From Daucus carota subsp. sativus (taxonomy: Eukaryota > Streptophyta > Magnoliopsida > Apiales > Apiaceae), in contig NC_030384.2 of the NCBI RefSeq assembly GCF_001625215.2, positions 30,058,527 through 30,122,526 on the forward strand: 64,000 nucleotides of DNA, read 5' to 3'. Both the position numbers and the translations under genes were made by a program. Shown in pieces: positions 6,714 through 59,067 of the stretch. Position 1 is the stretch's first letter, and each line of letters opens with the position of its first letter. The notes under the pieces were generated by a model, which saw only the letters and a program-made list of their open reading frames with translations, made no database searches and was not told where the DNA came from.

Positions 6714-6842
6714 AAGCTTGTATAACTTCAGTCACAAGTATCTAGCAGGCAAGGGATATATTATCACAAACCCTACTTGCTGCTTCATCATACGATCTCG
6801 AAATCTACAAGCTAGAAAAATTATTTCTCGAAAGAAAGAATA

Positions 6843-31712: not shown

Positions 31713-32456
31713 TTTACGAAAAGAGAATAAATTATTGGAATATTTTACTTCCAGAGCATGAATTTAATTTCCAGAGCAAAATCATTATAAAGACAAACTT
31801 TCCCTTAGCACAAAACTGCCTCCTGTTAGGACATCAATGTGAGTGCAGTTTCATATTTTCTATAGTTTTTGCTCCAGAAATTAAAATTATGCTCCGGAAA
31901 TAACACTGCCTTAAATTATTTTCCCGTTAGTGAAAAGCTTACAAATTCTCCCAACAACACCCGTGCAATATAGCATCTCCTTGAGAGGAACCGAATGCGA
32001 AATCAAATTCAAATTCAAATTCCTCCTTGATCTTTGTATAAAAAAACTGAAGGTAAACGTAACAATAATAAGTAAAGTGATCAGCAAAAGACTTGAGTCA
32101 CTGAGTAAAGGCGTTTGATTTAGTTTGTTTGTCACATATATTAAGAAATGTGTATATAATATAATTTTATAATTTTTTTTATTATGAATATTTAAATATT
32201 AGATTTTTTTAAAAATAAAATAATTTATGATAGGGGTGTTCATCGGACCGCCAACACCGCACCAAACCGCACCGCAAAATCCGGTTTTTTAATTTCGTGG
32301 TGCGGTTGCGGTTTAGAATTTTTACAAACTGCGCGGTGCGGTGTGGGTTGCGGTTTTATATTTGAGTAGTGTGGTTCAAACCGCACCGCACCGCATAGCA
32401 TATAATATTATAATATAAAATATATTTATTACATTTATATTATGTATTCATATATA

Positions 32457-32484
32457 CTAGGGAATTTGCCCGCGCTACGCGAGC
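32457..32484 (-). other. Helitron 3'-terminal hairpin and CTAG end
   Basis: On the minus strand GCTCGCG and CGCGGGC pair around TAG, with a short tail ending CTAG. This is the structure needed at a Helitron 3' end. Confidence 0.8.
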
Positions 32485-33303
32485 TAAAAATCATGTTTTA
32501 TTATCCAAAAATAAGATTATTTTTTGGAGCTTAGAATATTAAACAGTAAAAAGAGTAAAAAAAAAGGTCCTTTTCAATACAATGTTTTAAAAGAAGTATA
32601 TTGGTAATTCGGAAGTTTCCTTCTGCAATATAAGGCATTGCATGACATGAGGGTTTAAAATTATATAACTGATAGCTGCACATCACTCCGACGCCAGTCA
32701 ATTTATAAAAGGGGAAATAATAACATGAAGAGCGTGACAAAAAAAATATATATTATGGTCACCAGCAAAAACACGCAATAAGAAATGAAAAAAATGTGCG
32801 ACAAATGGTCGAGTAAAGCATTACATCGATGGAAAACTGAAATGTTGCTCAATAATACTTAAAGATCATTACGAAAATAGTTCCAATACCAACACAATAA
32901 CAGTACGCATGTACTTCATCTAACTTATTCAAAGACAGGAAAGAAACAGAAATCCGGATTGCGCTGGTGACCTTCGATAGTTGACAGCGAACTATCCGAT
33001 ATGCACTATATCATCTTCCTGAAGAAGTTGTTCATGTCAAATGCAAAACTTTACAATGTATCCGGTATCAGATTAAACGGTATAAACAATTAAGTGCATA
33101 ACATAAAATTTCATGGCATTGATATGTGTAGGTAATAATAAAATTGTGATCGATACCGTCTTTATCTTCTTTGAAACAGATCCAGCCGACCCAGGAGTAT
33201 GGAACAATTCAATTCCTTGGACAATCTATTCAAACAATATGGCAAGAACGATTATATATACAAAACCTACAAAGACTCGAGAAACTGATGAACTCTCGTA
33301 AGT

Positions 33304-34653
33304 TTATTTACATACCCCTGAGCTTGAGAATGTATTTGGATTGGTCTCCGGCGATTTATCACCAGATGAAGAATCATTCACTGTTTTATCGAAAAGTTCC
33401 ACAGCCTCGTAGATGTTACTATCACCGTTTTTGTTCCCTTCGGTAAGAATGATCTTTGCAGAAATCTCTTTACCGATAATCTTCTTATACATCTCAGATA
33501 CTGAACTGGTGGCTGGTGCCTGGTTTAAAACATAAAGATTTAAAAACATACTGACAACTAAGAAAAATGAATGCATGTTTAGTCACCAGGCGTAAATTCA
33601 TATGGACTGATACCTTTTTCATTTCATTCAGCATGTTAGTCACAGTTGTCCCGAGAATTTGTTTTACAATACGATCCATCAATAACACATTACAGGCATG
33701 GGTCTTATCATCGGCTAGGACCAGAATCCTAAATCTATAAAGACCACAAAATGAAGAATGACATGTAGAATGGACTTAGAAAATACACAAAAACTTATTC
33801 TTGTTTAATTTATTGACATTCTTTAGCTAGGTAGAGATTATATACTACCTCTTATCGGCATATGGAAAGCTGCGGTTACACGTCTCACACTTAAACTTTC
33901 TTTCAGTTCTTAGTACTTCAGCTTGGCATGCCGTGCAGCTATGGAACCAGAAATCGTCTTCCTCTTCAATTCTAGAAACCGTGAATGTTGACAACACAGC
34001 TTTCTGCAGATAAAAGACTTGTCAGTATACCATGATTCAATAAAGGTTATACAGGAAATAAGCACGATGATAAACATGCCCTCATAAACTTTCCTTTGCG
34101 ACCATAGACTCAGAATTAGCAATTAGGCTGGCAAATGACACGTGCTCGAGAACTGGGGCAGAGTTCATAGCAACGTCGGCAGATCCTCCAGGGGATTTAT
34201 AACCTATCTCAATTAGACTGTTAAACAACAATAATCAAAGGGTTATGTCCAGTGACGTCAGGGCGTTAAAAAAAGTGGATGATTTTTATCTGCACCAACT
34301 TACCGATTCCTAAATTCAATAACCGGCTCCACATCAAGATTAAAAAAAACCCTCGTCGAGGGCAAAGTACCAACCTGAACATGATCTGAAAATATCACAA
34401 AAATTTAAAATTTATATGGGTAATGTGTGACAGAGGGATTATAAAATAAACATTGTCGTGAAAGAACATATACAAAAATCCAACATGAACATTTAAATAT
34501 GGGTGTAGCTAGGAAATTTTTTCTATACCCATGAACACGCCAATCTTTGTGTTAGTCATGATACAAATCACAGGCTGTTCAAGATCAGGCTTGTAATAAT
34601 CGGAGCTGACGGCTGTGGCAAAATCTCCCCATATAGTAACTTTATGGGATATG
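33304..34653 (-). CDS. RPA1-like gene B, 3' exons (OB fold, zinc ribbon, C-terminal domain)
   Basis: This is the downstream half of a Helitron-borne single-strand DNA-binding protein related to the large RPA subunit. The first exon here (34653-34529) begins in phase with the exon ending at 48714, giving HKVTIWGDFATAV, a classic OB-fold strand. Next come 34385-34304 (VQVGTLPSTRVFFNLDVEP), an exon from 34217 and one ending 33849. The latter contains FWFHSCTACQAEVL and KFKCETC, a four-cysteine zinc ribbon as in the RPA70 C-terminal domain. Then follow FRILVLADDKTHA...NMLNEMKK, and a final exon ending at or near 33304. No stop interrupts any exon. One junction (about 34090 to 34000) has two possible sites. 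Confidence 0.8.
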
Positions 34654-35139
34654 CTGTAGTACAAACAACAACAAAGCTTGTATAGATAAACAAAGTGTTT
34701 TTAGATGACTACAGAGTATAAACATGTAACGACCCCAAAATTTTAAAGTACACAATTATGTAATCATTTAATTTCTTTAGTTATCGTGCGACTAGATTGT
34801 TTAATTATCTTGCAGAATGTCGACTTCAGATTTATTTATTTATTTATTTTTAGATCGATAAATACTAATTGAGAATTATTTGGTGCCAATTTATTAAGGA
34901 TGCAACTTATTCGATAATATTTATTAATGATTGATATTACTAGATTTCGTTTGATATGAATATTATTTAGACACCAGTTTTATTAATTGCATATAAAATA
35001 AATAAGAATATTATCATTTGTCGGTGTGAGAATTTATCGGAGAATATTTATTAAATAATTAAGTTCCGGAATGATCGCTTCGATAATATTAAAAATCACG
35101 AGAATTAGTAAATTAAACTAGCAAGTGGATTTAAGATTT

Positions 35140-35280
35140 CTTGGTGCCCAAGTAACGAAACTTGGTGCCCAAGAAACTCTACTTGGTGACCAAGTAACCA
35201 ATAGCACTAATCTAAAAAAAATAGATTGGAGGTTAGTGTGGTAATTAGTCATAATTACAATTAAAAGAATTTTTATAAAA
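35140..35280 (+). promoter_or_regulatory. LTR promoter: three 13-bp palindromes at 21-bp spacing, then a TATA box
   Basis: CTTGGTGCCCAAG occurs at 35140-35152 and 35161-35173, and CTTGGTGACCAAG at 35182-35194. Each is an inverted CTTGG/CCAAG pair around three bases, and starts are exactly 21 bp apart. TATAAAA follows at 35274-35280, about 80 bp downstream. The same array is at 45419-45473 in the other LTR. The arrangement suggests transcription-factor sites on one face of the helix. Confidence 0.6.
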
Positions 35281-35679
35281 TCCAAGAACAAGATTACTAC
35301 AAAGATTTTGGCTAAAAAGAGAAGAGATATTAGAGATTTGTGTTGCAGAAGAAAAGAGGAGAAGAAGCTAAATTCTTAAAAGCTTTACAAGGTAAATTCT
35401 TCACTAATTTTTGTATTTACTAAAATTAGTGGTAGTAAAATCTAGCATTTATTATGATTTTTGTACACTTGCATACTTAGTAGTTTCATGTAAAGTTTTA
35501 TTAGAAAACAAAAATGATATTTATATCTTGGTAATTTAGGGGATTTGAGTTTATTTGAGTTTTCCCCAAATTCAATTCAATTAGGGTTTGGGTTTTTGAG
35601 AATTTCTTGATGGATTAAAGGAGACTTGTGTGTAAATGTTGGTTGTTGTTGTTGAGTCTGGTTTTGGGGGGGGTGAAAT

Positions 35680-36020
35680 GGAAGGGAGGCGGCGCCCGAA
35701 CGGAGCTCGGCCGGAGCTCGCAGCCGGCGAGACGGCGGAGCCCCGCGGCTGGGGAAAGAAATGAGGCGAGGCAGAGAGATACAGTAGCGAGAGAGAGGGA
35801 GAAAGGGGGGGAGAAGAGAGAGGCGGTCGAGGGAGGAAGGGAGAAGGAAGGAGAGGGGAGCGGGGCTGGTGGTGGTGCCGGACGGCGCGAACGCCGGCGA
35901 GAGGGAGAGAGATGGCTGAGAGAGAGAGAGAGAGAGGGAAGAGAGTGGGAGGGAGAGAGAGGGGTGGTGTTGGTGTTGGTTGAAGAGAGAGAGAGAAGAG
36001 ATGAGGGGGAGATGGATTAG
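35680..36020 (+). repeat. GC- and purine-rich block inside the LTR, with a GA microsatellite
   Basis: In an otherwise AT-rich LTR, this block starts with a GC-rich part (GGCGGCGCCCGAACGGAGC...) and passes into GAGAGA-rich purine sequence. A frame of 130 codons is open only because of the purine bias and is low-complexity (R, E, G), so I do not call a protein. The same block is at about 45955-46300. Confidence 0.7.
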
Positions 36021-38405
36021 AGATTTGGAGAAGATGAGGGTAATTTGGTAATTTAATAATGGGTGGATGTGAGTAATAAAATAGAATAAGGATTTAATAA
36101 TAAGTGAGTAAATAATGTGTTGGCATGAGATTAAAATAAGCTTTAATGTTATAGGAGTTAATAAAATTTTGGGGATTTAAAGAATAGTGTTATGAGACTC
36201 ATTTATAATTAATTTAAAGGGTATGATTCAATTGATTTTAAAAGGGTCATTTTGAAAGGGTGAGACTTTGAGGAATAAATATAATGAGGATAAAATAAAT
36301 TAGAATTATTAGCGGATAATTATCGCGAATACCTATAATTAAGAATTTATAAGTGATAATTGAGTCATCGATAAAGTTATAGGAACCTTTGGATTGATAA
36401 AAGACTTTAATGAATTCTCGGATCAATAAAAAGGGGAGAATATACATTAAGTGGAAAATATTAATAAAACATAAATACACTTCTTGTATTCAAGTTTCAA
36501 TACATATATAATCATTTATGTCCGAGAATAAGAAAGATTATGTGCACTATTTTACCTAATTAGTGGTCAAGTGCGAGCAATAAAATGAGATATTATGTAA
36601 TTAAAATATATTATTCCATGATTTAAAGGACGATCATATAAGGGTAAATAAGGACGATTTAATTAATTTAGGAAAGTATGACTTAAGAGTTGGTAGTTGG
36701 AGATTGATTTATTTATTTATAGTGAGATTACTAAATTTATCATGTTATGTGATATATAGAATATTTATTCTTTGGAAAGCGAGGTCCATTGAGACAGGAA
36801 TATTATTTATCCGAGGAAGCCAGGCAAGTTCACTTGATTCCTTCTCTTGTTGTGCCAAATGTGTGCTATTGATTTATCAAATGTGATTATGCCTGATAAT
36901 TGATTCTGTGATTGAAACCCGATACTTTATTATATTTGAATATTTCGAGAAGATCAGGGAGAGACGGAAACTAAAAGATTTGACATTTGTTCAGATTCTT
37001 ATTGAACAACCTTTCTTCGTTACCCGAGTCTAACCATTGTTCGGATTGACTCATTATTTTGTGAAACCAAAATTTCAACGAACTTTCAATTCTTTAACTT
37101 GTCATACTTTTTGAAATGATTATTCTACTCTGAAATCTTTGCTTCATTACAGAATTCATATTTGATTCCAACCTTGCTCACATTTGAGAAGTCTAGTTCA
37201 TATTCTCGAGTTGTTATTACTAGAATAACTCAATCAATTTTATTTAATCTACGAGTACTCGCCAACCTTGTGAATTCAATTATCAAGATCTCTATCGTTG
37301 ATATGCTCTTTCTAACGAAGATATATGATTCAGATGTATTTTCCTTGGATAACCGATTATTCTTTCTATACACCTTAAAGTGGATAAATTGCTTGATTAT
37401 TGATTTACTCTTCTAGTTTCTTATTCTTGTTCAATCTGCTAAACTTCTATTCTTTTATTCGAACTATGATTAATCGACTTTATACAAGGATCGTTAACCA
37501 TGTTCGGTTCTATGTTATTGTTCTTTGGATGTTGTGATCGGATTACTGTTTCTTCGTAATCCGGCCGAGAGGTATTTAATTCTGAATTGTGAGGATGCAT
37601 TTATTCGCATTCTTGTGAGAAAGGAGAAGATTTATTCAATATGAAGTGAGCCAATTTGTACTCGGGGAATGAATTTCGTAAACTGGTCAACACGGATGAT
37701 TTGCATTCGTGGAAGAGTGGAAATATCTGTTGGCCCTATGTGTGGGACAACTTTAAGGGTTGAAAGCGATAACCCTTATGCTAGCAAATAAATGGGGGAA
37801 ACTGTGTGCCACCATTCGAAAGTCGCGATCAGACTGTGAAGGTGACACGGGGTGGTATCTACTTAGTGGCGGTGATCGAGCCATATGGTGGAACCACCGA
37901 GGATGGAGACCAGTATTACTATTATTCTTTGATTTTTGAGATCATTATGTGATTATCTGCAGCTCTCATTTTGAATCTGCTTAATTGTTATATCTGCTTA
38001 AATTCCTTTACCTAATCTGTGATGTTTGCACTTGAACTGTGAACTTGCTGAGCATTAAATTGCTCATACTTGCAACTCTTTATTTCCTTTAGACAGTAAA
38101 GGACCGAAAATGGCACAAATGAGAAGGATAATTCGGAAGCACATAACAGCAAAGTCAAGGGCAAAGCGTGAGGCTGTGGCAACGAAGGGTGCGAAGACTT
38201 GTTCCCGTAACGAGGATGTTTTATGATTATAACAATGGTAGATTGTACTTTTGAACTTATCGTTGTAATGTTATGATAGACTGCGTGGAAGTGTAAGATC
38301 GACCTTGGACTTGTGGGGCGAGTTATGTATTATTGGAAGTCAGGTTTGCTAAAATAATGTGACGGCCTAGATCCAGGATATACGGATCTGGGGGCGTTAC
38401 AGATT

Positions 38406-38417
38406 TGGTATCAGAGC
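38406..38417 (+). other. Primer-binding site (initiator tRNA-Met)
   Basis: TGGTATCAGAGC, four bases after the 5' LTR, is the standard complement of the initiator-tRNA-Met 3' end used to prime reverse transcription. Confidence 0.93.
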
Positions 38418-40945
38418 TGAGGTTATATTCTTAGGACACGGGAACCCTAGGAATATAACGAGAGAGTGAGAAAATAATACGAGAAATAAGATTTAAGTAT
38501 GTGATAGTTATACATCTACGAGAGCAGGCAAGGGTATATACGAAACCCGAAACTCTTTAGTGGGACATTAAACCCCATACTTATGAATACATATACGTAT
38601 ATACAAGTATCTTTAAGATGAGAAAATTACGATGGCATCGTTTAATTACCTGTGAAGATGATAGTAGCTAGTTCTCTTCGAGGATGCTCTTCTACACCCA
38701 ATACTTATGAGTGCTCAGATTGTAATATGGGTAGTGCCGCATCAAAGGGAAATTATGATTACTGATAGTAATTCAGAAGACACGACTATTCAAATCATTG
38801 AGCCTTCACCACTTGAGACTATAGAGGTTTGGTAACCTACTAGTTACCCAGTATTTATTTCTATGCCAGAGAGATAGGCATCAAATTTACCTTATAAAAT
38901 TTTGCTAGAAATAACCCTTACACTATTATTGACTACCTAGATAGCTACCCCTATCTTCTATTCATTCGTTGTTCGTATCAGAGGGTAGAGATGATCAGTG
39001 ACTGTCGAATATACTTAGACACTTTTACCTAATTCTTCCAAAGGCTAATTCATTTTCTTATGATTCCATTATGATGCCGATTTTCAATCGGTATCAATTC
39101 AAGTTCCATACCTTTATCAACACCATTTCTATTGGTGAGATTCTTTGATCATCTTTTGCAAATTTCCATTCGATATATTCCAATATCAAGCCAAAAGCTC
39201 GAGTATCACAGCCAGAGACCTCTACCTCAAGGGCTTCTGTTTCTATCTCATATAATATAAAAATACCAATCTTTCTATTACAAGGTTTCTTCTTTTCTAC
39301 CTGAAAACCCTTTAATTTCAGTATCAATTCCTACAACAAACTCAGCACCAGTGTTTATTCTAACACCAATAAAGTTCCAGTTTCTTTTTATGCTCCATAT
39401 GTTGGGAGCGATGCAGTGCCACTCTCAGCACAGTTAATATCTGCACAACAGTATGAGATGCTAGCAAAGTATTACCTTGAGTTTAAAGTTTTCATGACGT
39501 ACTGTTGTGGATATGAGAATTATATAATTCTGTAATTGTTCAAGAGAGCCGGATTTTTGGCCCGCGAAATTATGGCAAAGGAATCTATCGAATAGTTATT
39601 TATGTATTGGAAAGGCTTCTGATAGATATTCAATAGACTACTTCGACCAGCTCCGGACATAGAGGAGCCACTTTTGTGGATCGAAACCATTAAGAATCTT
39701 GGTGTAAAGTTACAGAGATATTCAGACACTGATGGTTTAGACTTCTTGGGTATAATTTATTCCTTTGCAAGATAACACTTATAATTTATGAATATCTCCA
39801 GTTCTACCTCTGTTTATGGATATTGACATTGTATAGTAACGAGCATAAGAGCCTTGCATTTTCTTATTATTACAATTCAGATTCGGACATAAGATCTGTC
39901 GAGCAGATAGAGATGTAAGTAGACATCTTATTAAGACATCTTATTAACCATAGTTGAATTCATATCCCAGTGATTAAATGTGTCTTCGGATAATGATAGA
40001 ATGGTATGTTAACTTCATATGCTTAAGATGATGACTAGTGGAAATGGACGATATTATTTTGAGATAATTTCCAATATTTGCTATGCATGATCTTTTGTAC
40101 TTATGAAACCACTGTTTAATCCTTGATCGCGATATCTGGTATCACCTTGTTATTGAAAACCCTTCAAATACTTATTTCTTATTAAACCCTCTTTCATTTT
40201 CAAGACCACCTATCTTTTGCAAATAAATGTAAAGCCTTGGACATGTTGATATACTTCCTTAAAAAATTATTAAACCTTAATTTACCATCTAACCTTTATT
40301 TCATAAACAAAACTCTTGTCAAACATCTATTAAACAATTTTACACCACTATAAACAGGTGCTACACTTTGCACTCTTGCATTTCAAGTAAACCTGTACAC
40401 CGTGTGATAGTAACCAATATTGTTCCTCCTTTATAGAAACAAGATGAACTCGGAAATTGGTAAAAAAACCAAGAACATGAAATTCCACAAGAGAATATTC
40501 CAGCCAATCCTGATCTGATATAAATGCTCTTTGATCTCTTACAACGACATGCTCCAAACCTAGCAACCCATACCAACGGAGTATCAATCAACCAACCACC
40601 TAAATCATTTGTTATATTAAAAAACTTTTAACTTTGTACACCCCATGAGTTTAAAGAAACCACGGATCCTATTGAGGCTAGGACCTGGTTGAAAGAAATT
40701 TAAAAAGGGATTTTGAGATTGTGGGAGTTGAGGATGATAAGGAAAACTCTGTTTGAAACATATATGTTAAATAGGGAAGCTAACTATTGGTGGGACGCTA
40801 AAAAGGTCTAGAAGGGACTAGAGTTATGACGTGAGAATGCTTTACGAAATATTTCTTATAGAAACATTTTCCTAAATACCATGAGAATCACGTAACTCAG
40901 ATTTTTAGAATTCAAACAAGGGAAAGTATTTGTGCCTGATTATAT

Positions 40946-43900
40946 ATGAAGCCAAATTTACATAACTTGCAAGGTTCGTACAACATTATGTTGATATTAG
41001 TAAAAAGAGAGCCCGACGTTTTCATTTTTCAACAAGAATTGAAACCCTGGCTCCTGAGCAGGGTAGTTGTTTTGAACGCAGAAGACTGCTATCATAGGAA
41101 GCGAAGTGAGCTATACAACCGTGGAAAAATGGAAAGAAATGGAGGGCACCACATCCAGATCGTAGCCAAGGGAAGAAGATATTGGACTAGTATATAAAGA
41201 AACCTTATGTTAAAAGGCTATTCAACAAGGATAGAACACTTCGAATTAGAAATTCTTGAATCAGAAATCGAGAAAGCTACGGAGGGAATGAGAGGTCCAG
41301 TCCTCCATAAACTACAAATGTTCTCCATGAAAGACCTCATTTGCGTGAATACAAGAATTATGGAAAGAAGAATCCAACTTCGTGCTATCAGGAGTCCACC
41401 ATTTGTTTTATCTATGGACAGAAAGGACGCTATGTTTCAAAATGTAAACAGAAAAGCTGTTACTCGCTTCAACTATTAAAAGACGCGCCATATGGCCAGG
41501 GATTGTTGAGCGCGACGCAAAGAAAACACTATTCCAAGATTAGCAACATCTCTAGAAAGGAGCAAGCCAACATCGTGCACCTTTAATATGACCATGAAAG
41601 ACGCCATAGTCAACGACGACATTATTTCGTGTACGTTTACAGTAAATCCTTAAGATGCTTGTGTGCTGATTGATTCTGTAGCTAGCAAATTATGTAAATT
41701 TTATGCAAAAGTTGGGAATTGTTCTGGCACCCTTAGGAGAGCCTATGGAAATTGAAATCGTGAATCAGTAAGTGATTTCTATGGATCAAGTGTGTCCTAG
41801 GTTGTGAAGTAACAAATCAGAAAGAACTTTTCAACATAGATTAGTTCCTTCTAAGTTAGGGGAGTTTGACATGATACTTAGAATGGAATGGTTAACGAGT
41901 TACGACGCTCAGATTAATTGTAGACGAAAACGTATAAGAAGTGATGATGGGAAGAGATGATTGTAAGAAGACAAAAGCAAGATAAGAAATTTTTGATCAT
42001 GACACATGTCAAGAAATTGCTTCGGGAAGGATGTCAGACCTATTTGGAGCACATGATAGATCCGGAGAAATAGAGTCCTGGAATGGAATAAACCTCAGTA
42101 GTAAATGAGTATATAGATGTACTTCTTGAAGAGTTACCGGGATGCCCCAAATAGGGAGATTGAGTTCACTATAAACCTTGTGCCAGGTACCGCACCTCTA
42201 TCAAAAGCTTCACCAGCATAAATAATAGAGTTAGCAACACAATTATGGGAATGATTCGAAAAAGGAGTCATTAGGCCAAGTGTATCCTCGTGGGGAGTTG
42301 CAGTGTTGTTTGTTAAGAAAAAAGATGGAAGTATGAGGTTGTGTATTGAAATTAAGAAATTGAATAAGGCGACAATTAAGAATAAGTACCCTTACCAATG
42401 ATTGATGATTTGTTTGAACAATTGAAGGGAACAACTCATTTTTTTTTCTAAGATTGATTTAAGATCTGGATGTCACCGAATTAAAAATTAAGCCTGAAGA
42501 TGTGCCTTAGATAGCTTTTAGAACCAGGTATGAACATTATGAGTTCTTAGAAATGCATCTAGGATTAACCAATATTCAACTTTCAGCCTTTATGGGCCTT
42601 ATGAATAGAATATTCAAGAAATATTTGGATAAGTTCGTGATTGTTTTCATTGATGACGTTTTAATTTACCCTAAAGACTGGAAAAGAATATGCAGAGTAT
42701 TTAGAAACAACATTGGAAATCTTGTGAAAAGAGAAGTTGTACGCAAAATTTTCAAAATGTGAATTCTGGTTGGAGCAAGCACAATTTCCGAGACACGTAG
42801 TTTCTAAAGACGGCATATCATTTAGACCCCGCAAAGGTCGAAGCGGTATAAAATTAGGAAAGACCTAGAACTCTGATGGAAGTTTTCTTAGACTAGTAGG
42901 ATATTATCAAAGAATCGTTTAAGATTTTCAAAGATTACAACACCATTGACACGGTTAGTCTAAATGGAAGAGAAGTTTGAATGGATGCCAAAGCATGAGG
43001 AAAACATCCAAGAACTAAAGAAAAGACTCGCGATAGCTCCTATGTTGACTTTACCAAATGAAAATGGCAATTTATAATCTTCAGTGATGCTTCTCATAAA
43101 AGTATAGGATGCGTATTAATTAATATAGCATGAAAAAGAAATTGTTTATGCTTTAAGACAACTAAAAGATTATTAATTGAGATATCTTATTCCTGACTTG
43201 GGATTAGTTGTGATCATATTCGCATTGGAGATATGGTGACATTAATTTTAGAGCGAGAAGCGTGAAACTTATGTGAATCATAAGAACTTGAAGTATTGGT
43301 TTACTCGGAAGAAATTAAATATAAGGCAAACGAGATGGTTAGAGTTGATTAAAGATGGTGATTGTATAGATAACTGTATAGTTAACTGTCATCCATGGGA
43401 GGTAAATGTATTTGCAGATGCGTTAAGTAGAAAAGAAAGAGTCAATGTGATGTCTTCACCAAAGGAATTGATAAAGGAAATGGAAAAGTTAGAATTGGAA
43501 ATTAAGGATTCAGAGCATAAGGAGGGAATGATATATGAAATGTTAGTGCAACCAGAGTTACTAGAAAGAATCAAAAGAGTCAAGAATTAATGATTGAAGA
43601 AAGACGATCTAAATTGACAGGCGATGAGTACTTACATGTTGAAGATGAAAAGGAAATTAAGAGATTTTCTAATAGGTTTAGATTTCTACAATAACAGAAT
43701 TTAAAAGTAAGATTTTGAGCAAAGCACATGACTCGAGATATTTCATACACTCAGGGAGCACAAAGATGTTTCAGGATTTTAAAAGACACGATTAGTGGCC
43801 ATATATGAAAAAAAGAATTTGTAGATTGGGCGAGTAAATGTTAAAATAATAAAAGATAAAAGTTAAACATCAAAGACCCAATGGATTATTACAACCTTTG

Positions 43901-44990: not shown

Positions 44991-45003
44991 AAGGGGGAGA
45001 GAC
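44991..45003 (+). other. Polypurine tract
   Basis: AAGGGGGAGAGAC immediately precedes the 3' LTR, where plus-strand DNA synthesis would start. Confidence 0.85.
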
Positions 45004-48000
45004 TGTAACGACCCCAAAATTTTAAAGTACACAATTATGTAATCATTTAATTTCTTTAGTTATCGTGCGACTAGATTGTTTAATTATCTTGCAGAATGTC
45101 GACTTCAGATTTATTTATTTATTTATTTTTAGATCGATAAATACTAATTGAGAATTATTTGGTGCCAATTTATTAAGGATGCAACTTATTCGATAATATT
45201 TATTAATGATTGATATTACTAGATTTCGTTTGATATGAATATTATTTAGACACCAGTTTTATTAATTGCATATAAAATAAATAAGAATATTATCATTTGT
45301 CGGTGTGAGAATTTATCGGAGAATATTTATTAAATAATTAAGTTCCGGAATGATCGCTTCGATAATATTAAAAATCACGAGAATTAGTAAATTAAACTAG
45401 CAAGTGGATTTAAGATTTCTTGGTGCCCAAGTAACGAAACTTGGTGCCCAAGAAACTCTACTTGGTGACCAAGTAACCAATAGCACTAATCTAAAAAAAA
45501 TAGATTGGAGGTTAGTGTGGTAATTAGTCATAATTACAATTAAAAGAATTTTTATAAAATCCAAGAACAAGATTACTACAAAGATTTTGGCTAAAAAGAG
45601 AAGAGATATTAGAGATTTGTGTTGCAGAAGAAAAGAGGAGAAGAAGCTAAATTCTTAAAAGCTTTACAAGGTAAATTCTTCACTAATTTTTGTATTTACT
45701 AAAATTAGTGGTAGTAAAATCTAGCATTTATTATGATTTTTGTACACTTGCATCCTTAGTAGTTTCATGTAAAGTTTTATTAGAAAACAAAAATGATATT
45801 TATATCTTGGTAATTTAGGGGATTTGAGTTTATTTGAGTTTTCCCCAAATTCAATTCAATTAGGGTTTGGGTTTTTGAGAATTTCTTGATGGATTAAAGG
45901 AGACTTGTGTGTAAATGTTGGTTGTTGTTGTTGAGTCTGGTTTTGGGGGGGGGTGAAATGGAAGGGAGGCGGCGCCCGAACGGAGCTCGGCCGGAGCTCG
46001 CAGCCGGCGAGACGGCGGAGCCCCGCGGCTGGGGAAAGAAATGAGGCGAGGCAGAGAGATACAGTAGCGAGAGAGAGGGAGAAAGGGGGGGAGAAGAGAG
46101 AGGCGGTCGAGGGAGGAAGGGAGAAGGAAGGAGAGGGGAGCGGGGCTGGTGGTGGTGCCGGACGGCGCGAACGCCGGCGAGAGGGAGAGAGATGGCTGAG
46201 AGAGAGAGAGAGAGAGAGGGAAGAGAGTGGGAGGGAGAGAGAGGGGTGGTGTTGGTGTTGGTTGAAGAGAGAGAGAGAAGAGATGAGGGGGAGATGGATT
46301 AGAGATTTGGAGAAGATGAGGGTAATTTGGTAATTTAATAATGGGTGGATGTGAGTAATAAAATAGAATAAGGATTTAATAATAAGTGAGTAAATAATGT
46401 GTTGGCATGAGATTAAAATAAGCTTTAATGTTATAGGAGTTAATAAAATTTTGGGGATTTAAAGAATAGTGTTATGAGACTCATTTATAATTAATTTAAA
46501 GGGTATGATTCAATTGATTTTAAAAGGGTCATTTTGAAAGGGTGAGACTTTGAGGAATAAATATAATGAGGATAAAATAAATTAGAATTATTAGCGGATA
46601 ATTATCGCGAATACCTATAATTAAGAATTTATAAGTGATAATTGAGTCATCGATAAAGTTATAGGAACCTTTGGATTGATAAAAGACTTTAATGAATTCT
46701 CGGATCAATAAAAAGGGGAGAATATACATTAAGTGGAAAATATTAATAAAACATAAATACACTTCTTGTATTCAAGTTTCAATACATATATAATCATTTA
46801 TGTCCGAGAATAAGAAAGATTATGTGCACTATTTTACCTAATTAGTGGTCAAGTGCGAGCAATAAAATGAGATATTATGTAATTAAAATATATTATTCCA
46901 TGATTTAAAGGACGATCATATAAGGGTAAATAAGGACGATTTAATTAATTTAGGAAAGTATGACTTAAGAGTTGGTAGTTGGAGATTGATTTATTTATTT
47001 ATAGTGAGATTACTAAATTTATCATGTTATGTGATATATAGAATATTTATTCTTTGGAAAGCGAGGTCCATTGAGACAGGAATATTATTTATCCGAGGAA
47101 GCCAGGCAAGTTCACTTGATTCCTTCTCTTGTTGTGCCAAATGTGTGCTATTGATTTATCAAATGTGATTATGCCTGATAATTGATTCTGTGATTGAAAC
47201 CCGATACTTTATTATATTTGAATATTTCGAGAAGATCAGGGAGAGACGGAAACTAAAAGATTTGACATTTGTTCAGATTCTTATTGAACAACCTTTCTTC
47301 GTTACCCGAGTCTAACCATTGTTCGGATTGACTCATTATTTTGTGAAACCAAAATTTCAACGAACTTTCAATTCTTTAACTTGTCATACTTTTTGAAATG
47401 ATTATTCTACTCTGAAATCTTTGCTTCATTACAGAATTCATATTTGATTCCAACCTTGCTCACATTTGAGAAGTCTAGTTCATATTCTCGAGTTGTTATT
47501 ACTAGAATAACTCAATCAATTTTATTTAATCTACGAGTACTCGCCAACCTTGTGAATTCAATTATCAAGATCTCTATCGTTGATATGCTCTTTCTAACGA
47601 AGATATATGATTCAGATGTATTTTCCTTGGATAACCGATTATTCTTTCTATACACCTTAAAGTGGATAAATTGCTTGATTATTGATTTACTCTTCTAGTT
47701 TCTTATTCTTGTTCAATCTGCTAAACTTCTATTCTTTTATTCGAACTATGATTAATCGACTTTATACAAGGATCGTTAACCATGTTCGGTTCTATGTTAT
47801 TGTTCTTTGGATGTTGTGATCGGATTACTGTTTCTTCGTAATCCGGCCGAGAGGTATTTAATTCTGAATTGTGAGGATGCATTTATTCGCATTCTTGTGA
47901 GAAAGGAGAAGATTTATTCAATATGAAGTGAGCCAATTTGTACTCGGGGAATGAATTTCGTAAACTGGTCAACACGGATGATTTGCATTCGTGGAAGAGT

Positions 48001-48683
48001 GGAAATATCTGTTGGCCCTATGTGTGGGACAACTTTAAGGGTTGAAAGCGATAACCCTTATGCTAGCAAATAAATGGGGGAAACTGTGTGCCACCATTCG
48101 AAAGTCGCGATCAGACTGTGAAGGTGACACGGGGTGGTATCTACTTAGTGGCGGTGATCGAGCCATATGGTGGAACCACCGAGGATGGAGACCAGTATTA
48201 CTATTATTCTTTGATTTTTGAGATCATTATGTGATTATCTGCAGCTCTCATTTTGAATCTGCTTAATTGTTATATCTGCTTAAATTCCTTTACCTAATCT
48301 GTGATGTTTGCACTTGAACTGTGAACTTGCTGAGCATTAAATTGCTCATACTTGCAACTCTTTATTTCCTTTAGACAGTAAAGGACCGAAAATGGCACAA
48401 ATGAGAAGGATAATTCGGAAGCACATAACAGCAAAGTCAAGGGCAAAGCGTGAGGCTGTGGCAACGAAGGGTGCGAAGACTTGTTCCCGTAACGAGGATG
48501 TTTTATGATTATAACAATGGTAGATTGTACTTTTGAACTTATCGTTGTAATGTTATGATAGACTGCGTGGAAGTGTAAGATCGACCTTGGACTTGTGGGG
48601 CGAGTTATGTATTATTGGAAGTCAGGTTTGCTAAAATAATGTGACGGCCTAGATCCAGGATATACGGATCTGGGGGCGTTACA
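45004..48683 (+). repeat. 3' LTR of the Ty3/Gypsy element
   Basis: 3,680 bp, nearly identical to the 5' LTR, including the palindrome array (45419-45473) and the GC/purine block. Confidence 0.93.
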
Positions 48684-48713
48684 AAACATGAATTAAATTT
48701 CAAGTCAATATAC

Positions 48714-49410
48714 CTTCCATCAGCTATTAAAAATCTGACCACTTCCCTCTGTCCAATTTTGGTAGGAACTTTCTTCATCTTGTGAAAATTCTCGACGACC
48801 CCAATAATATCTGCATTACCAAAATTACTCAGTCTCCATTGGTATTTTCTATAATGTAAAAAATGACAATGATACGCTAACCTATTGCAAATTCTGGGTT
48901 TTCATCACCAACAATCTTTTTGGCCTCCTCGGACAAATCGCCTAGGTCCATAAATTCAAACTTATGGACAGGGATCAACAAATCATTTGGCTGATCTATT
49001 ATAATAGTAGAGCTGAGCAGACGTATGCATAATTTGTTTGACACAGGCTTCAATTTCCCTGTAGAATCCCTGACTTGGAAGTTCTCAATGACGTAGACGT
49101 TACCTTCGACTACCTCCTTCCCGATTGCGGTCCAGTTGTCAGGGTAGGCGTAAGCATGAATGTGAGAATTCTGTAAACATGTAGCAATACATCGGATGTC
49201 AGTTTCATAACCGATATATAACCTCGCATTCTTTGCAAGTAAAATCACAAAACAAATTAATATATTTACATCGTCGTCCAAAAGAATGAAGTTGTATCCT
49301 TTGATGTCATTAGTTTTGTTGGATACTGTCTGCCAAAATCTGGTACACCGGGCTTTGATTCTCCAGTTTGTCCTCGACTTGTCAAGGTTCTGAATATGGT
49401 CGAACATCAT
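48714..49410 (-). CDS. RPA1-like gene B, 5' exons (first and second OB folds)
   Basis: Exons 49410-49270, 49170-48882 and 48810-48714 have GT/AG sites and phases that match each other and the exon at 34653. The first encodes an OB-fold start (NWRIKARCTRFW, YNFILLDDD). The second gives EGNVYVIENFQV and LLIPVHKFEFMDLGDL. The third gives DIIGVVENFHK...VVRFLIADG, the start of the second OB fold. The start ATG at 49410 is tentative; an AG just before it could be an acceptor after a tiny first exon, as in RPA-like gene A. The next intron contains the whole 13.96-kb retrotransposon. Plant Helitrons are known to carry RPA1-like genes, thought to protect single strands during rolling-circle transposition. 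Confidence 0.8.
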
Positions 49411-49429
49411 TCCCTGCATTCTTAACACC

Positions 49430-50928
49430 GAAACAAATGGACAACATAAACTCCAGTCAGGATGTGCTTGATATCAACAGGTTTAAAACGACATTTATAA
49501 TATTAGATGCAAACATACAGCAGCGCTAGCGACATACCTCTTTGCAAAATAATTAAACACACAGTTTGTTGACTAAAGATATGCACAGACGAACTGCTTA
49601 TGGCATGTGAGGTTTTATAATGTATGTGGACGTCTACATGGTCGTGATATTAGGAGTAATCTCAGGGATATTTGATACAACGTGATCCCAGGCATGTTAT
49701 CATCAAACTTGTATTATTTCTGTTAAAAGGAAAATACAACTCTTATGTATATCAAACTTTACTTACCCGTGAAAATCCCATGCTAGGATTGGGGTAATAT
49801 ATTTTATGCGTGTATTAGTGAACAAATCATGGGTAATGATTGATACACATAGGTTGAATCAGTTTAGTTTGGAATACATCCGATTTTGGTGCTTTTTTTT
49901 CTCTCCGTAATATATCCTTTAATGACCCTTTGCAGCCGGACAATAAGCAAGATAATTATTTGAATTTTTTTCTTAAAATCTATTTACAAATTAAACTCGA
50001 ACACCTGTTTATTATTGTTAAATATCGCACAAATAGTCTATCATCCAAAAAAAATGCATTTACTAATATTAACAAAGTAATTTTCCAAAAAAAAAAAAAA
50101 CAAAGTCATATATAATGAACAAAATTTCTTACACCGGGTAAAAGAATCCTTGGATACATTTTTGTCCAGCCATTCAAATTTTAACTTTTTAGAATAGATA
50201 TAGAAATATGACAATTAAAATGAGATGGAGGGAGTATTATCCTAAGTACTATTAAGCAAAACATGGTTACAAACCAAATTACGCGTTTGCGATAATTGTA
50301 ATAGATGATTCATTTACTTGCATAATCAGATTAATAACGTGAGACGTGACACCAGTACTGTGACATATAAAAATTCACATATTTTAATTATCTATTTAAC
50401 ACTGCTGACCTACTTAATGCATACGTCACAGAATAATACTTTAAGGATGAATTGCTTTTTGTATAAGGATTATTTTAAACGGAAGTCAACATTTAAAAAA
50501 AAAATAAGTGTGAGTCAATGTGAATTCGAGGATTAATATAAAGAATAATCAAGTAAAATATTAAATTAATTGTTTTTTAAGTAAATAAATATAACATTTG
50601 GTTAAATTTTAATTTGCAGGCGTGCCATAAATGTAATAGATGATTAATTCAGTGGAAACTAATGAAAAACCGGACAGACATGAAACTTGTATGAAAGAAG
50701 TAAGGAATAGCTTATTAAATTCCACATATTTTAATGATATTATATAATCCTATAATTGTGATTAATCAGTTTGGTCCTAATTTAAGTTATCAGAAAACGA
50801 ATAATAACGTAGAGTAATAAAGTAATAAAAACGATTTAGTTAATGACAATATAAATTATGGATTTCTGGTAATGAGTTTGGAAATATGCTCTATGTAGAA
50901 ATCCATCGTATATTCAAAATATTTGTAT
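49430..50928. other. Spacer between RPA-like genes B and A
   Basis: AT-rich Helitron sequence with a lone Stowaway-like end at 50224-50236 (GATGGAGGGAGTA). No gene seen. Confidence 0.5.
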
Positions 50929-51319
50929 TTATTCTGAACATGATTTATGACTATCGATGTAATGTATCCTAATATGAATTACCACGGGGATACCTTTGGG
51001 ACTAAATGATATAACAAACTGAACAAACTTATTTAATAAAAATCCTTCACGCTTTGTTACATTAATGGCAAAAACAAATTTTTTTGAAGGAGAAATAAGA
51101 CGGTGTCTCCAAAAGAAATGCTTTGAGTACGTCCGCATCACTCCAAGCTTGTAATGAACCTGGTAAAAACCCAAAGATTAACCGTTCACGTTGTGGGCGT
51201 AGCTGTAAAAAGAACATAAGCACGCATTATCATCTGAGTATAGACCTAATATACGTCTACAAAAAGTGTAGTTATCGGGAATGCCATATCTAATATCATG
51301 GTGCAAATCTTACATTTGC

Positions 51320-52440
51320 CGCATCTCGTCACTCTCCTTAATATCAAGATTGATATGAACCTTTGAAAATGGCATAGTAGAGACCGATAAAGATGCTGAA
51401 ATAGCACAGTGTGCAATAGTGTTAATTTCTTGTAAATCATGTGGAATGTAATAATAAACATAATAACTAATATTGACATACATGGACAAATCATAACTCT
51501 GGCACTTGCTATTACGACCACCACGGGTGTATCAAGATTATCATTGAACAACACATTGGAAGACGATTGATGTTGTTCCCATACTCTGACCGCAAATGAT
51601 CTCTTTCCATTAGTTATGTTAAAAGAATGCACGATTTTCGGTCCTGACTTGGTAACAATAGGAATGATCTGTCCAGGATTCTCGACAACACCAATAAGGT
51701 CTGGAAAAAAGTTTACATGCAACATAGAAATTTGCACTTCAATTTCTAAAAAAGATGAATATATAATAAGTACTTTCAAATGCAAGGCGAATTTGGTGAA
51801 TACCTATGCATTGAATAGGCATGTCACTACTGGAGTTGGCGGGGGCATGTTCATTCAGATTGTCTAGACTGATGAACTTGAAACAATTAACGGGAATGCT
51901 GACGTCGGGTTCGGTGACAGGGTTCACACTCGTCACCGGTGTGAACAAAATACATTTTGGTGTCTGGACCGGTCGTATCTTTCCAACTGGTATTCTGGCT
52001 ACAAAATCAGCGATTTCGTAAACATTCCCCTCGACGATGGGGTGGTCCAATGAATTCCATTTAGCAGGAGTGAGTATTGCATGCACGGGCAAGTTCTGCA
52101 TGCATTGAACAGTGAGTTAAACAGTGGCGTCTATTATGGTGATAGTTTAAAAACATGCGCTAAATACAAACAAACTTAGCTAAACACACATCATTGTCGA
52201 GGAGAATTAGATTGTATGCAATGATCTTATCACTCCATAACGACTTCATGGGCCAGCAACGGGTTACACGAACCCTCAAGCGCCAAGACATCTTCGAACT
52301 ATCTACCCTGCCGAGAGTGTCATACGCATCTTGCATAAGAAATACAAAAACAGAGAGTCGAGTAAAATGCAATGCAACTTATATAAATTGTGGAACAACA
52401 AAGTCAGAGACAAAATGGGCGATGCAGAGTACTCACCCAT
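51320..52440 (-). CDS. RPA1-like gene A (paralogue of gene B, probably shortened)
   Basis: Exons 52440-52437 (ATGG), 52329-52190 and 52095-51804, plus one starting 51700, read in phase. They give MSWRLRVRVTRCW and YNLILLDND (first OB fold), EGNVYEIADFVARI and IPVNCFKFISLDNL, then DLIGVVENPGQI and FAVRVWEQH (second OB fold). These align piece by piece with gene B, including intron positions, so the two are duplicates. A further exon with VHINLDIKESDEM near 51355-51310 matches gene B's FFNLDVEP segment. The zinc ribbon and C-terminal domain found in gene B were not found. 50929-51174 contains an open frame I could not assign. The product would bind single-stranded DNA, possibly alongside the helicase. 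Confidence 0.7.
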
Positions 52441-52564
52441 GGAACCGTGCAAAACAGCTACTCCGTTATAATCCGTGCTAACTGATGTGTACACGTTTCA
52501 ACTTATAGGCATACTAATAGTCGAGATTTGTTTATATTGATAAAGATACTCACCCGCTGATTTA

Positions 52565-53170
52565 GAGATCATGAATAATTAATATGAGTTATATTAGCTG
52601 TTGATACTATCACAATTCTTAAGATATGATATCCCTAACGATACATGCCATATCCTTATCTTTTTTTGGGAAAGGACTAACAATGGAGCAAATATTCTGA
52701 GGAATTGTTATACAATCAGTACACACGAAAAATTAGTGCTTTATTAAATAATTACTTTAAACTCTATATAAATCAATCTAAATTATTAAAACTACATTAT
52801 TTAAAGAGCATGCTAGTAATTATAGACACAGATGCTAAAAAGATTATCTATCATTATATGCAACTCCAAATATCACAAAATAAAGAAAATATAATTTTCT
52901 TTAATAATCATCATTATATATAACTCCAAATATCACAAAACAAAGGAAATAGAATTATATAGAGTTATTCAATCAGTACACACGAATTCTATGGCCGATT
53001 ATGAGATCATGAATAATTAGTATGAGTTATATTAGCTGTTGTTACTATCACACATTTTAAGATATGATATCTCTACAATACGTGCCATATCCTTGACTTT
53101 TATTGGTAAAGGACAATAACAGTGGAGCAAATATTCTGAGGAACTGTTATATACAATCAGTACACAGGAA
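52565..53170. repeat. Direct repeats of about 165 bp between RPA-like A and the helicase
   Basis: 52565-52730 and 53003-53170 share long stretches (GAGATCATGAATAATTA, TATGAGTTATATTAGCTGTT, GGAGCAAATATTCTGAGGAA, CAATCAGTACACA) with scattered changes. Between them, AACTCCAAATATCACAAAA occurs twice (52862 and 52923). This is a local duplication within the Helitron. Confidence 0.75.
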
Positions 53171-53576
53171 ATAATAATATGATTATTTTTGCTTTGTTAA
53201 TTTTTTCCAAACCTCTTAATATTTGTTATAGTGTTCTACATCACTCAATACTCGAATAATCAATCAAGAGACGCATATATAGCATCACTTCAATAAAATA
53301 AAACATGTGTATAATATTGGTGTCTTGGCGTGGGTAAATGATACTCTATTCAAAAAAAAATTATAAACTGTGCTGAGTGGTGGGACAGTAAACCTCCATG
53401 GGCAATAAGTTTCACTTTTCTGCACTACTGTAGTCATACATGGGAACAGATAGAAAAGATGATCGTAGTTGCAAACATATTATGTGAAGCAAGCATCAAC
53501 AATTAAAAGACAGTGATTGAGGTATCAAGTTACAGACATCTTAACACCTGCCGAATCAACAACCATGAGTTTAATA

Positions 53577-55216
53577 CTATGTTACCGAAGGAATGTTGTA
53601 GAAAACTTCCTCATAGACAACATTTTTTGTTATGTCTTTTGTGTGACCATCATCGCCTACAATCATGATATGTAGACCATCGGGAGATGTAACTCGTGAT
53701 ATCGCCACATATAACTGTCCATGTGTGAAAACAGGTCTAGGCAAGTACAATCCAACAGTGCCAAGCGACTGACCCTGACTCTTATTGATGGTCATGGCAA
53801 AACATATCTGCAGCGGGAATTGAGTCCTCTTAAAATCAAAAGGCCATATGGTATCAGTTGGAATCATATCAATTCTCGGTATTAAATGTTTTGTTCCCTT
53901 ATGTGTACCCGTAATAATCTGACACTCTATACTGTTCTTCTTGCAACCTGTAACAATCATCCTGGTTCCATTGCATAGTCCAAGTATCTGGTTCAAGTTC
54001 CTCATAAGCATGACCGGCGTACCAACCTTGAGCTTCAACTCATGCTTGGGAATGCAAGGCATGTTTAATGAGTTTATGTACTCGATTGGAAATGATTCGG
54101 CAAAATCATTATTCTCACTTCCGTTGTCTTCCATTGAATCCTGACTGTAATACGTGTACGTTTCACCAGGTATCTTGTCAAGGATAATCTTGTTTATGTC
54201 GTCAACAACAACATTAGTTGGAGTCAGAATTGCTCTGTCACGGATGTATTCATGAGACTGAAAATTTTCCTCGAAGCCCGGATAAATTCTGTCAACTAAA
54301 GACTGAAGTGGACTCTCTTCAGCATGAATTAGAAATCGCTCAGGCATTTTCATGTTTGCGTCGTTGCTTGCATCTGGTTCAAAATCATGACATTTCTTAC
54401 CGTCTCCGATTCTAAGCTGCCACTCACTAAAATCTTTAATAATTCTGTTCTGCTCAGGTGTGTTTCCAGCATGAAGACGCATGTTCCTACTTAGAAGGTG
54501 TACCTCTGCATGATCCCATAATTTTGATCGGTTGAGCGAGGCGGCAACAATATCGGGCCTGCCAGCTTTGGGAATTACAGGCAAAATCTGCCTATAGTCT
54601 CCACCGAACACTATGGTTATCCCACCGAAAGGTTTTGCAGAATTAGATGAGTCAACAGCAGACATAATATCTCTTAAACTCCTATCAACGCACTCAAACG
54701 CGTAGCGATGCTGCATTGGAGCCTCATCCCAAACAATCAAATCAGTATGTTGAAGCAACTCGGCAAGGTCTGTACCATGCTTTATGCCAGCCGTTGAATG
54801 CTGATCAAGTTTGATGGGTATGTGGAAACGTGAATGAGCAGTTCTGCCTCCAGGAAGAAGCGTGGCTGCAATGCCAGAAGATGCAACAGGAATGACAATT
54901 TTGTGTTCCGAGCGAAGACGACTTATGATGGTCTGCCAAAGGAAGGTCTTACCACAACCACCGCTGCCATGAACAAAGAATACACCTCCGTCTTTTTTGT
55001 ATACCCTGTTTATAATGGAGTCATAAGCGCTCCTTTGTTCGGCATTCATCTTTTTAAAATTTGTGTCATGCATATCTTTCATTGCAGAAGTATCATACGA
55101 AGTCTCTTCAGAAATCATACGGTTGATGTCTGATTTCAGGTAAATTTCAGATGGGTAAGGCATGTCAGGGAAATCTTTCAATGTTCTACCCATGTCAATC
55201 AGCAACTTTTCGATTT
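53577..55216 (-). CDS. Helitron Pif1-family helicase, lacking the Rep part
   Basis: An open frame of about 545 codons starts after a splice acceptor at 55217-55218. It begins IEKLLIDMGRTLKDFPDMPYP, the usual junction into the helicase of plant Helitron proteins. Counting from the Leu after EK (residue 1), Walker A GSGGCGKT is at about 80-87 and Walker B IVWDEAPM at about 157-164. FGGDYRQILPV, GTPVMLMRNLN, MTINKSQGQSLG and YVAISRV complete the SF1B motifs. The protein would unwind DNA 5' to 3' during rolling-circle transposition. Full plant RepHel proteins are roughly 1,300-1,700 residues with an N-terminal HUH nuclease. That part and upstream exons are not visible in the 1.1 kb before the predicted Helitron end, so the gene is 5'-truncated. 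The remaining frame is uninterrupted. Confidence 0.92.
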
Positions 55217-56319
55217 CTGCAAATATAAGATTTATACAGTCAAATATACATATGTAATAGTATACTAAGAAGCTATAATAATATTATTATAAATAATACA
55301 TGATTGTTTACACTACTAAGCCAATAATGCTGACTTCAGAAAATTCAGTATTACTTGTATAATAGAACAGTAGTTATGTTTGCTCACCTTAAAGCGGATA
55401 CCATTCATTTATGTATTATTGCTACTATATTAATATTATTTTTAAAGTGTGCAACCATGTATACTTGCACTTGAAATGTCAAAAAACTAATGATATAAAG
55501 GCGATGCATAGCTAGTATGGGAACTGCACTGGTGACACATTTAAGGATTGTTTACACTAATAATCACCTCTCTAGCTGTTATCATTAAATTGCTATTTTA
55601 ATATTCTTATTATTTGACAAACCACTTTAGGCAAACTTATTATAGAGGACAAAAATGTTGGGGAAGGACCATTGTCATGAAGCATCTGTTAGAGCTTTAA
55701 ATCCCAAACTTAAAAAATTCTTAGAGCATCTCCAAGGGACTAAAACGATTAGCTAAATTATCTACATGGCATCTAGTGGCACTATTTAAATATTATCTAA
55801 AAAGTTGAGCACTCCAACCATTACCTCTTAGCAAAAAATTTTAGATAACTAAAATTGGGGTTACTACATTTGTAAAACATCTAAAACTTTTATGTATAAT
55901 TTTAGATAATATAATTATGCATAACACCATTGGAGTGAATCTAGGACCTCTTAGCTATAATTTTAGATGATTATCTATATATCATATTATAGCTAATGAA
56001 TATTCATGACACCCTTGGAGATGCTCTTATTCAATAATGTACAATCATATTTGGGCCGACAAACAGGGGTACATTTTGCAAGAATCATTCATATCACACC
56101 ATGCAAAACAACAGGGGTAATAGAGCTACATATCACTGAAATGAAATGGATTTTTTTTCCTTTTTATATGTGTGGTAAAGATCCACCAAGTCCTGATTCC
56201 TTTTAAGTATTTTTTACACTAATAATCCACGACTGGTTATAATAAAAAATTTGTTATAGTATCAAATTAAAATGGTAGCTATGTTTGCTCACCTGAAAGT
56301 ATCATATATATTAGTGTGA
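55217..56319. other. 5' part of the Helitron without coding sequence
   Basis: Holds the Harbinger-like MITE at 55724-56026 and two related stretches (about 55374-55400 and 56274-56297 share TATGTTTGCTCACC; about 55547-55575 and 56213-56240 share TTTACACTAATAATC). No Rep-like frame is seen. Confidence 0.5.
55724..56026. mobile_element. PIF/Harbinger-like MITE in the Helitron
   Basis: The ends GAGCATCTCCAAGGG and inverse CCCTTGGAGATGCTC lie between TTA and TTA. It is 303 bp. Confidence 0.82.
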
Positions 56320-56719
56320 TAGTATCATATATATTTGTTATAGTATCATATATATTAAATTATATAATTTTATTTACATATTACTTTGGTAATGTGATAG
56401 TTGATATACGAAACATAAAAAGAAGCTTGTTGTTAGAATAAATCTATTTAATATAATATTCTAACTATCAATTTTATACTTTATTATAATTTTTAAGTTG
56501 ACATTTTTAGACCGCATAGACCGCACAGCACCACACCGCATTTGTGTGGTGCGGTTAATGCGGTTTTTGAGTTGCGTGGTGCGGTTTGAAATTTTAATCA
56601 AACCGCATGTGCAGTTTGGTCCGTGATTTTAGAAAAAAACCGCACCGCGAACACCCCTAATTTATGAAATTAGGAGATTTTGTTTTTCTATTTCGAATTG
56701 TTAAAAAAATTGTGTATTA

Positions 56720-57084
56720 GAGCAAGTCCAATAGGTGTGCTAAATCAAGTCTTAAATCCAATAATAGGGAATATGGGATAAAATTGCACTCCAACACTAT
56801 GCTAGTGATGTGCTAAATCACTAGCACAAGCCTCCTCTTCCCTATTTTTAGAATATGCTAGCCACTTCTAAACTATTTTTATCATTAAAATATTCATTTC
56901 TCTCTTCTCCACATCATTTCCCTCTCTCCTCCACACCAAAGTTGTTTAAATTTAATATTATTATAATAATAGGGAATGGATATAGGGAGTACTATTGGAG
57001 CTCATGTGCTAAATCTTGTGCTAAATTACTAAGACATATTATTTTATAATATTTTTAGGGAACCTCTTAGCGTTGGACTTGCTC
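56720..57084. mobile_element. PIF/Harbinger-like MITE, 365 bp
   Basis: The ends GAGCAAGTCCAATAGG and inverted GAGCAAGTCCAACGC lie between TTA (56717-56719) and TTA (57085-57087). Confidence 0.82.
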
Positions 57085-59062: not shown

Positions 59063-59067
59063 GCATG

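Follow-up and report, generated by a model that had tools for sequence, protein, structure and literature searches.

A 64,000-nucleotide stretch of the carrot genome (Daucus carota subsp. sativus, contig NC_030384.2; C4:30058527-30122526, in the following referred to as the window) harbors three transposons stacked at a single locus, i. e. a hAT element that is interrupted by a Helitron, which is in turn interrupted by a Ty3 retrotransposon. This nest had been proposed in an initial annotation of the sequence and is confirmed by searches across the 441-Mb assembly with its 11 contigs. The proposed order of insertion, hAT before Helitron before Ty3, is likewise supported by sequence comparison, because the Helitron site and the Ty3 site are each continuous in a relative: the hAT copy L049 is empty for the Helitron, and a Helitron relative on C8 is empty for Ty3. 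Transposon nests are ordinary in plant genomes, and the view of this one as unusual can thus not be upheld. What the locus adds to a mere nest are the two empty sites, a Helitron devoid of its Rep domain, and a Ty3 lineage that is coding-dead and nevertheless displays at least two recent insertions. The explanation as a whole, a nest comprising a Rep-less Helitron, a miniature inverted-repeat transposable element (MITE) and a member of a dead Ty3 lineage that was helped in trans, is considered very probable. No description of the locus or of the Ty3 lineage was found in the openly licensed literature, which is weak evidence of absence.

The outermost element is framed by the 8-bp target-site duplication ATTTATGA at 32223-32230 and 56660-56667, which is perfect over a distance of 24.4 kb, just as the initial annotation stated. 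Its termini TAGGGGTGTTC (32231) and GAACACCCCTA (56659) span 24,429 bp, and 11 bases of the terminal inverted repeat (TIR) TAGGGGTGTTC are identical between both ends; we take this repeat to be of the hAT type from its consensus. The left part (32231-32456, plus strand) is matched by family copies, the start of the right part (56355-56659, plus strand) is uncertain within approximately 56320-56355, and both parts carry the TIR. Without its inserts, the element amounts to 0.5 kb of non-coding sequence. Using the left 226 and the right 340 bases as queries, with the best 40 candidates scored for each, at least 42 and at least 40 matches were obtained, respectively. Forty loci were fetched by place, 38 of them picked from the left matches and two from the right. 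All 40 match the left part and 34 match the right part as well. The 8-bp duplication is perfect at 26 of these loci and shows one mismatch at two, while none was detected at the other 12 using the end pattern applied; copies with perfect duplications measure 673-1,466 bp, mostly 700-790. Since family copies match both outer parts and L049 runs through the joint between them, the two parts belong to a single element that the Helitron has divided. The initial annotation had suggested exactly this alignment to the family and had named ends from different families, or the lack of any copy spanning the joint, as outcomes that would speak against a nest; the 34 two-sided matches and L049 point the other way. 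A known plant element of this kind, hATpin, is a hAT-like MITE or non-autonomous hAT. Non-autonomous hATs and hAT-like MITEs of plants (for carrot, PMC8227079) are similar to the window element in the TIR start TAGGGGTG, the 8-bp duplications, a size near 0.7 kb, subterminal motifs of the GGTGCGGT type that occur repeatedly, and high copy number, while the window copy differs from them in its interruption by a Helitron. In the sequence of events supported here, a non-autonomous hAT of this 0.7-kb family landed first.

The Helitron lies on the minus strand, and its 3′ part (32457-34724) comprises the CTAG terminus, a hairpin and the 3′ exons of an RPA-like gene. The terminus reads ...GCTCGCGTAGCGCGGGCAAATTCCCTAG|T and ends with base 32457, which is 226 bp within the hAT element and where the initial annotation had placed it. 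It thus displays a CTRR-type 3′ end with a hairpin just upstream and a host T behind it. The hairpin alone is unexceptional in comparison with shuffled sequences (z -1.46; 18 of 200 shuffles fold equally well), and the assignment of the 3′ end therefore rests on its recurrence together with CTAG|T at other loci. The identical end point is shared by three differently flanked loci elsewhere, located on C2, C7 (L081) and C8 (L089). Of these, the copy at C2:58593092 is 95.5% identical over 1,690 aligned columns and has another flank; its homology stops abruptly at window position 34138. Two further candidates, L082 (C3:43487010-43490110) and L083 (C1:23115505-23118596), were rejected as additional same-point ends because they are decayed at this position, so that the count stands at three. 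Both carry an intact hairpin-CTAG|T 250-280 bases beyond the decayed end, and L083 seems to contain another decayed end in between. This pattern looks like the one expected if new 3′ ends arise after read-through.

The empty counterpart of the Helitron insertion is provided by L049 (C7:41318018-41325290). In this copy, the left hAT part extends to window base 32456 and is followed by sequence that corresponds to the window starting at 56348 and running to the right; the two alignments overlap by a few bases. Compared with a joined query, L049 is continuous over 135 bases (81%); with a joined query of 272 bases, it is continuous over bases 1-190 (82%), the joint being base 126. Judged by these alignments, L049 is an empty site for the window Helitron. 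Most other hAT copies deviate from the window in the AT-rich middle of the element, where L049 is the nearest one. L049 also holds a Helitron of its own (approximately 454-6809, 6,355 bp, A|TC...CTAG|T), which is located 66 bases further into the hAT. It was rejected as a sister of the window Helitron, because its comparison with the window Helitron DNA gave chance-level matches alone (E 0.48), and is assigned to a different family. Since the two Helitrons sit at different points, the window hAT and L049 are each other's empty site. Helraiser favors AT-rich surroundings and AT targets (PMC4778049), and the presence of two Helitrons in the AT-rich middle of a hAT fits this preference. The window Helitron would then have entered this AT-rich middle between an A and a T.

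The initial annotation had further described the junctions of the nest as readable. This holds for both ends of hAT and of Ty3 and for the 3′ end of the Helitron, but not for the 5′ end of the latter, which is blurred by repeats. The position of about 56319 suggested for this 5′ end could not be retained, as hAT homology to L049 restarts only at approximately 56348 and the Rep domain is absent. The 5′ part of the Helitron (48689-56319, minus strand) is hence certain to the nearest tens of bases, with the true boundary at approximately 56300-56356, that is, in or beside three copies of TATCATATATATT (56300-56312, 56323-56335 and 56344-56356). The motif TCATATATA occurs on both sides of the Helitron (32448-32456 and 56346-56354), yet it also belongs to this local repeat; the host A on the 3′ side is base 32456. 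The hAT probably had TTCATATATA|TT at the insertion point, so that the 5′ end may have joined at a short matching sequence. A canonical 5′ TC end at 56319/56320 is possible, though doubtful. The Rep domain would then have been lost by internal deletion, and the roughly 30 extra bases would be hAT sequence or a small duplication. The minus strand does feature a TC after an A at this position. However, L049 has no counterpart of 56320-56347, this stretch corresponds to repeat units two and three, the first unit lying to the left at 56300, and no second copy of the 5′ region was found in the assembly at the sensitivity used. Specifically, a DNA search of the assembly with the 5′ end returned two matches, the window itself and 124 bases at 75% on C8, and window 55223-56319 gave no convincing match to the C8 relative. 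The short match pairs 56081-56204, at the Rep-less Helitron end, with C8:8451443-8451569 (75% over 124 bases) and may represent a gene fragment that was captured. A repeat of about 95 bases occurs at 56299-56209 and 55394-55303 with 72% identity, both units lying in the 1.1 kb upstream of the helicase exon.

The coding content of the Helitron is best understood by comparison with the C8 relative, in which Rep (Helitron_like_N, E 3.8e-28), helicase, RPA exons and terminus follow in one order. The window copy encodes a PIF1-like helicase in a frame of 568 aa without stop (53580-55283, minus strand, E 5.2e-85), for which a genome search gave 78 matches, the closest being 82% identical and located on C8. 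On the same strand and in correspondence with the C8 relative, it retains a DUF223 exon (48880-49473, E 2.2e-06) and the C-terminal zinc-binding part (Rep_fac-A_C; 33848-34021, E 3.7e-05, below the curated cut-off) of an RPA-like gene. A weak match at 51742-52378 constitutes a second RPA-like DUF223 region in the same Helitron, possibly pointing to a duplicated gene. No Rep part lies upstream of the helicase frame, and all four Rep pieces of the C8 relative lack a tblastn match in the window at E≤1. As Rep is absent here and present on C8, the window Helitron is filed, by homology with this relative, as a Rep-less, non-autonomous derivative of its family. Equipped with helicase and RPA genes and devoid of Rep, it could not be autonomous as it stands and must have been moved by the RepHel of another element, or have lost Rep afterwards. 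Plant Helitrons with RepHel and RPA, for which Helraiser serves as the mechanistic reference, share with the window copy the CTAG 3′ end, a hairpin about 11 bases before it, the PIF1-type helicase, the RPA-like gene and, putatively, the A|T target (PMC4778049); the window copy differs in lacking the Rep domain and a demonstrable 5′ TC end.

The innermost element is a Ty3 retrotransposon of 13,959 bp on the plus strand, flanked by a perfect AAACA duplication at 34720-34724 and 48684-48688, as had been noted from the outset. It consists of a 5′ long terminal repeat (LTR) of 3,677 bp (34725-38401), an internal region of 6.6 kb (38402-45003) and a 3′ LTR of 3,680 bp (45004-48683), and the two LTRs are distinguished by one substitution and two indels. 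The element has paired TG...CA LTRs, the short duplication, the primer site TGGTATCAGAGC just inside the LTR, which is presumably tRNA-Met-like, and a polypurine tract before the 3′ LTR. Two decayed pieces that fall short of the curated cut-off, one of reverse transcriptase (RT; 42511-42759, E 0.0068) and one of RNase H (43252-43587, E 0.0078), are followed downstream by a C-terminal integrase piece (SH3_Tf2-1; 44383-44784, E 3.4e-22), while the catalytic integrase core gave no profile match in the window element. These features, including the order RT, RNase H, SH3-like integrase end and the 5-bp duplication, are those of plant Ty3 elements; unlike them, the interior was coding-dead before the copies spread, and the LTRs are unusually long (3.68 kb). 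In the C8 Helitron relative, the sequences flanking Ty3 (window 48697 and 34655) have their counterparts close together, at positions 4044 and 4130 inside an RPA-like gene, and the relative is alignable across the site (approximately 70% identical, with gaps). On this alignment, the C8 relative is continuous across, and thus an empty site for, the Ty3 insertion, and the site is read as an intron of the RPA-like gene. The 14-kb Ty3 element would have entered the Helitron last, or nearly last, by inserting into this intron.

With no frame open beyond 134 aa in 6.6 kb, the Ty3 interior lacks the coding capacity for autonomous retrotransposition, a feature that had escaped the initial annotation. 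Searching with 1 kb of RT-RNase H sequence yielded at least 43 matches (the best 40 of 708 candidates being scored), of which the next best copy is 85% identical. Ten of these matches were selected and fetched, namely the top six apart from the window and four that ranked lower. The top six and the window copy, each on a chromosome of its own, contain stops throughout all three forward frames, whereas the four lower-ranking copies, with 71-76% identity to the window copy, have one frame that is open over the entire stretch. Over 320 codons framed on one of the open copies, the dead copies display 9-13 in-frame stops each (7/7) and their open relatives none (4/4). The stops of the dead copies fall on 28 positions, of which 13 are common to at least two copies, nine to at least five and three to all seven. 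These three stops, as well as a 1-base deletion that causes a frameshift, are present in every dead copy and in none of the four open relatives. Three positions common to seven copies did not arise in any of 20,000 runs of random placement, and a tree parts the four open from the seven dead copies with a support of 1.000. The common stops and deletion together with the split of the tree indicate that the lineage was inactivated before the copies were made. The RT-RNase H region would therefore have been inactivated in a common ancestor of a lineage that was still moving. The other members of this group are 82-87% identical to the window copy.

Recent movement is suggested by a second dead copy on C2, which is 87.3% identical to the window copy in the 1-kb RT-RNase H stretch, has one mismatch in the 1,630 LTR bases compared (part of the 5′ LTR) and is flanked by CAATC on both sides. 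LTR matches were found on both sides of five of the seven dead pol copies (C4, C2, C6, C3 and C9), in the case of C9 about 6 kb further out than the 5′ stretch first examined, which is itself without an LTR start; the LTR search showed no match beside the copies on C1 and C5. Recent copies that carry the common inactivating changes are those in the window and on C2, as compared over approximately 1 kb of the interior. The lineage would thus have given rise to at least two recent copies, including the one in the window, whose LTRs are separated by a single substitution. Most likely, this coding-dead lineage kept moving in trans: we infer that the Ty3 proteins would have come from another, coding-competent Ty3, and that the four open relatives are candidates for this helper role is a guess. 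That these elements represent a full-length coding-dead Ty3 parasite, which lost its enzymes in a common ancestor and is still inserting, as seen on C4 and C2, is somewhat favored over its alternatives. Substitution rates lie in the range of 0.4-1.3 per site in 100 million years, albeit not specifically in carrot. Roughly estimated with these rates, one substitution in 3,677 bases would correspond to about 10,000-35,000 years, whereas several million years would be needed for the 13% by which the C4 and C2 copies diverge. A side observation concerns C3:25036383-25079937, where five LTR and four pol matches alternate on one strand with a spacing of approximately 10.7-11.3 kb. This is probably a tandem Ty3 array with common LTRs, in which the pol copy L099 has no stop in one frame across the 1 kb examined.

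Several points weigh against this picture and its alternatives have to be considered alongside them. A clear empty site for the Helitron is seen only in L049, since the matches of other copies end by about position 158, some 30 bases past the joint, in AT-rich sequence. Likewise, 13 of 28 stops common to at least two copies are unremarkable, as random placement gave a mean of 7.8 and a maximum of 17 in 20,000 runs; because pairwise sharing is thus near random, the argument rests on the stops common to all seven copies and on the deletion. The copies were compared over approximately 1 kb of the 6.6-kb interior, leaving out gag, protease and integrase of the relatives. These common changes might also be expected if the seven dead copies were segmental duplicates of one dead element. 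Such an origin is nevertheless highly improbable, as the window and C2 copies differ in their duplications (AAACA versus CAATC), each has near-identical LTRs, and the window Ty3 site is empty in the related Helitron; it is refuted for these two copies, which are the ones covered by target-site evidence. Even less credible is a chance arrangement or an assembly artefact, with unrelated ends brought together in a misjoined contig, given the copies of the family, the empty sites seen at two levels of the nest and the perfect duplications around both the outer and the inner element.

A further objection is that, at the sensitivity used, the assembly contains no near-identical source copy, although a recent insertion would be expected to have left one. 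The best LTR match outside the window is 80% identical over 490 of 800 bases (all 29 candidates scored), and the best other pol match reaches 85%. The source copy could be missing from the sequenced line, could have been lost, or could lie in a gap. Alternatively, the low LTR divergence could stem from gene conversion, so that an old Ty3 that decayed in place merely appears young. The heavily decayed interior and the missing close relatives of both interior and LTRs would agree with this. Yet gene conversion would have to extend over the whole 3.68 kb of both LTRs and, on C2, also over the 1.63 kb included in the comparison, and decay in place alone does not explain three stops and one deletion at seven loci, which renders this alternative unlikely. 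Even under gene conversion, a dead template was copied, because the common changes predate the separate insertions. The preferred reading of a dead lineage mobilized in trans has precedents in large retrotransposon derivatives (LARDs), Dasheng with RIRE2, and BARE-2, which are non-autonomous LTR families mobilized in trans. The window Ty3 resembles them in moving without functional proteins of its own and in having kept LTRs and cis signals, whereas it carries a recognizable, stop-ridden pol in place of the mostly replaced or deleted coding regions of those families.

The three levels of the initial annotation are all present, but they do not exhaust the locus, as a fourth insertion was found within the Helitron. 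This MITE of 303 bp (55724-56026) has TTA on both sides and is, from its TIR and duplication, presumably Tourist-like. It would have entered the Helitron either before or after Ty3. A second MITE with TTA duplications is located just outside the hAT at 56720-57084. Elsewhere in the window, 59063-60521 is occupied by a long inverted-repeat element, which measures about 1.46 kb and has arm segments that are 97% complementary, and 3666-3975 and 16790-17103 make up an inverted repeat of two sequences that are 91% alike, lie 13 kb apart and both start near CTCCCTCCGT.

Taken together, the nest represents a firm relative clock that is anchored by two verified empty sites. If the dead Ty3 lineage indeed continued to insert, the long retention of a recognizable dead pol would suggest that its helper system requires RNA length or structure, not coding content. 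The insertions on C4 and C2 provide a concrete recent pair that makes the helper question testable, in a plant for which good genomic resources are available.

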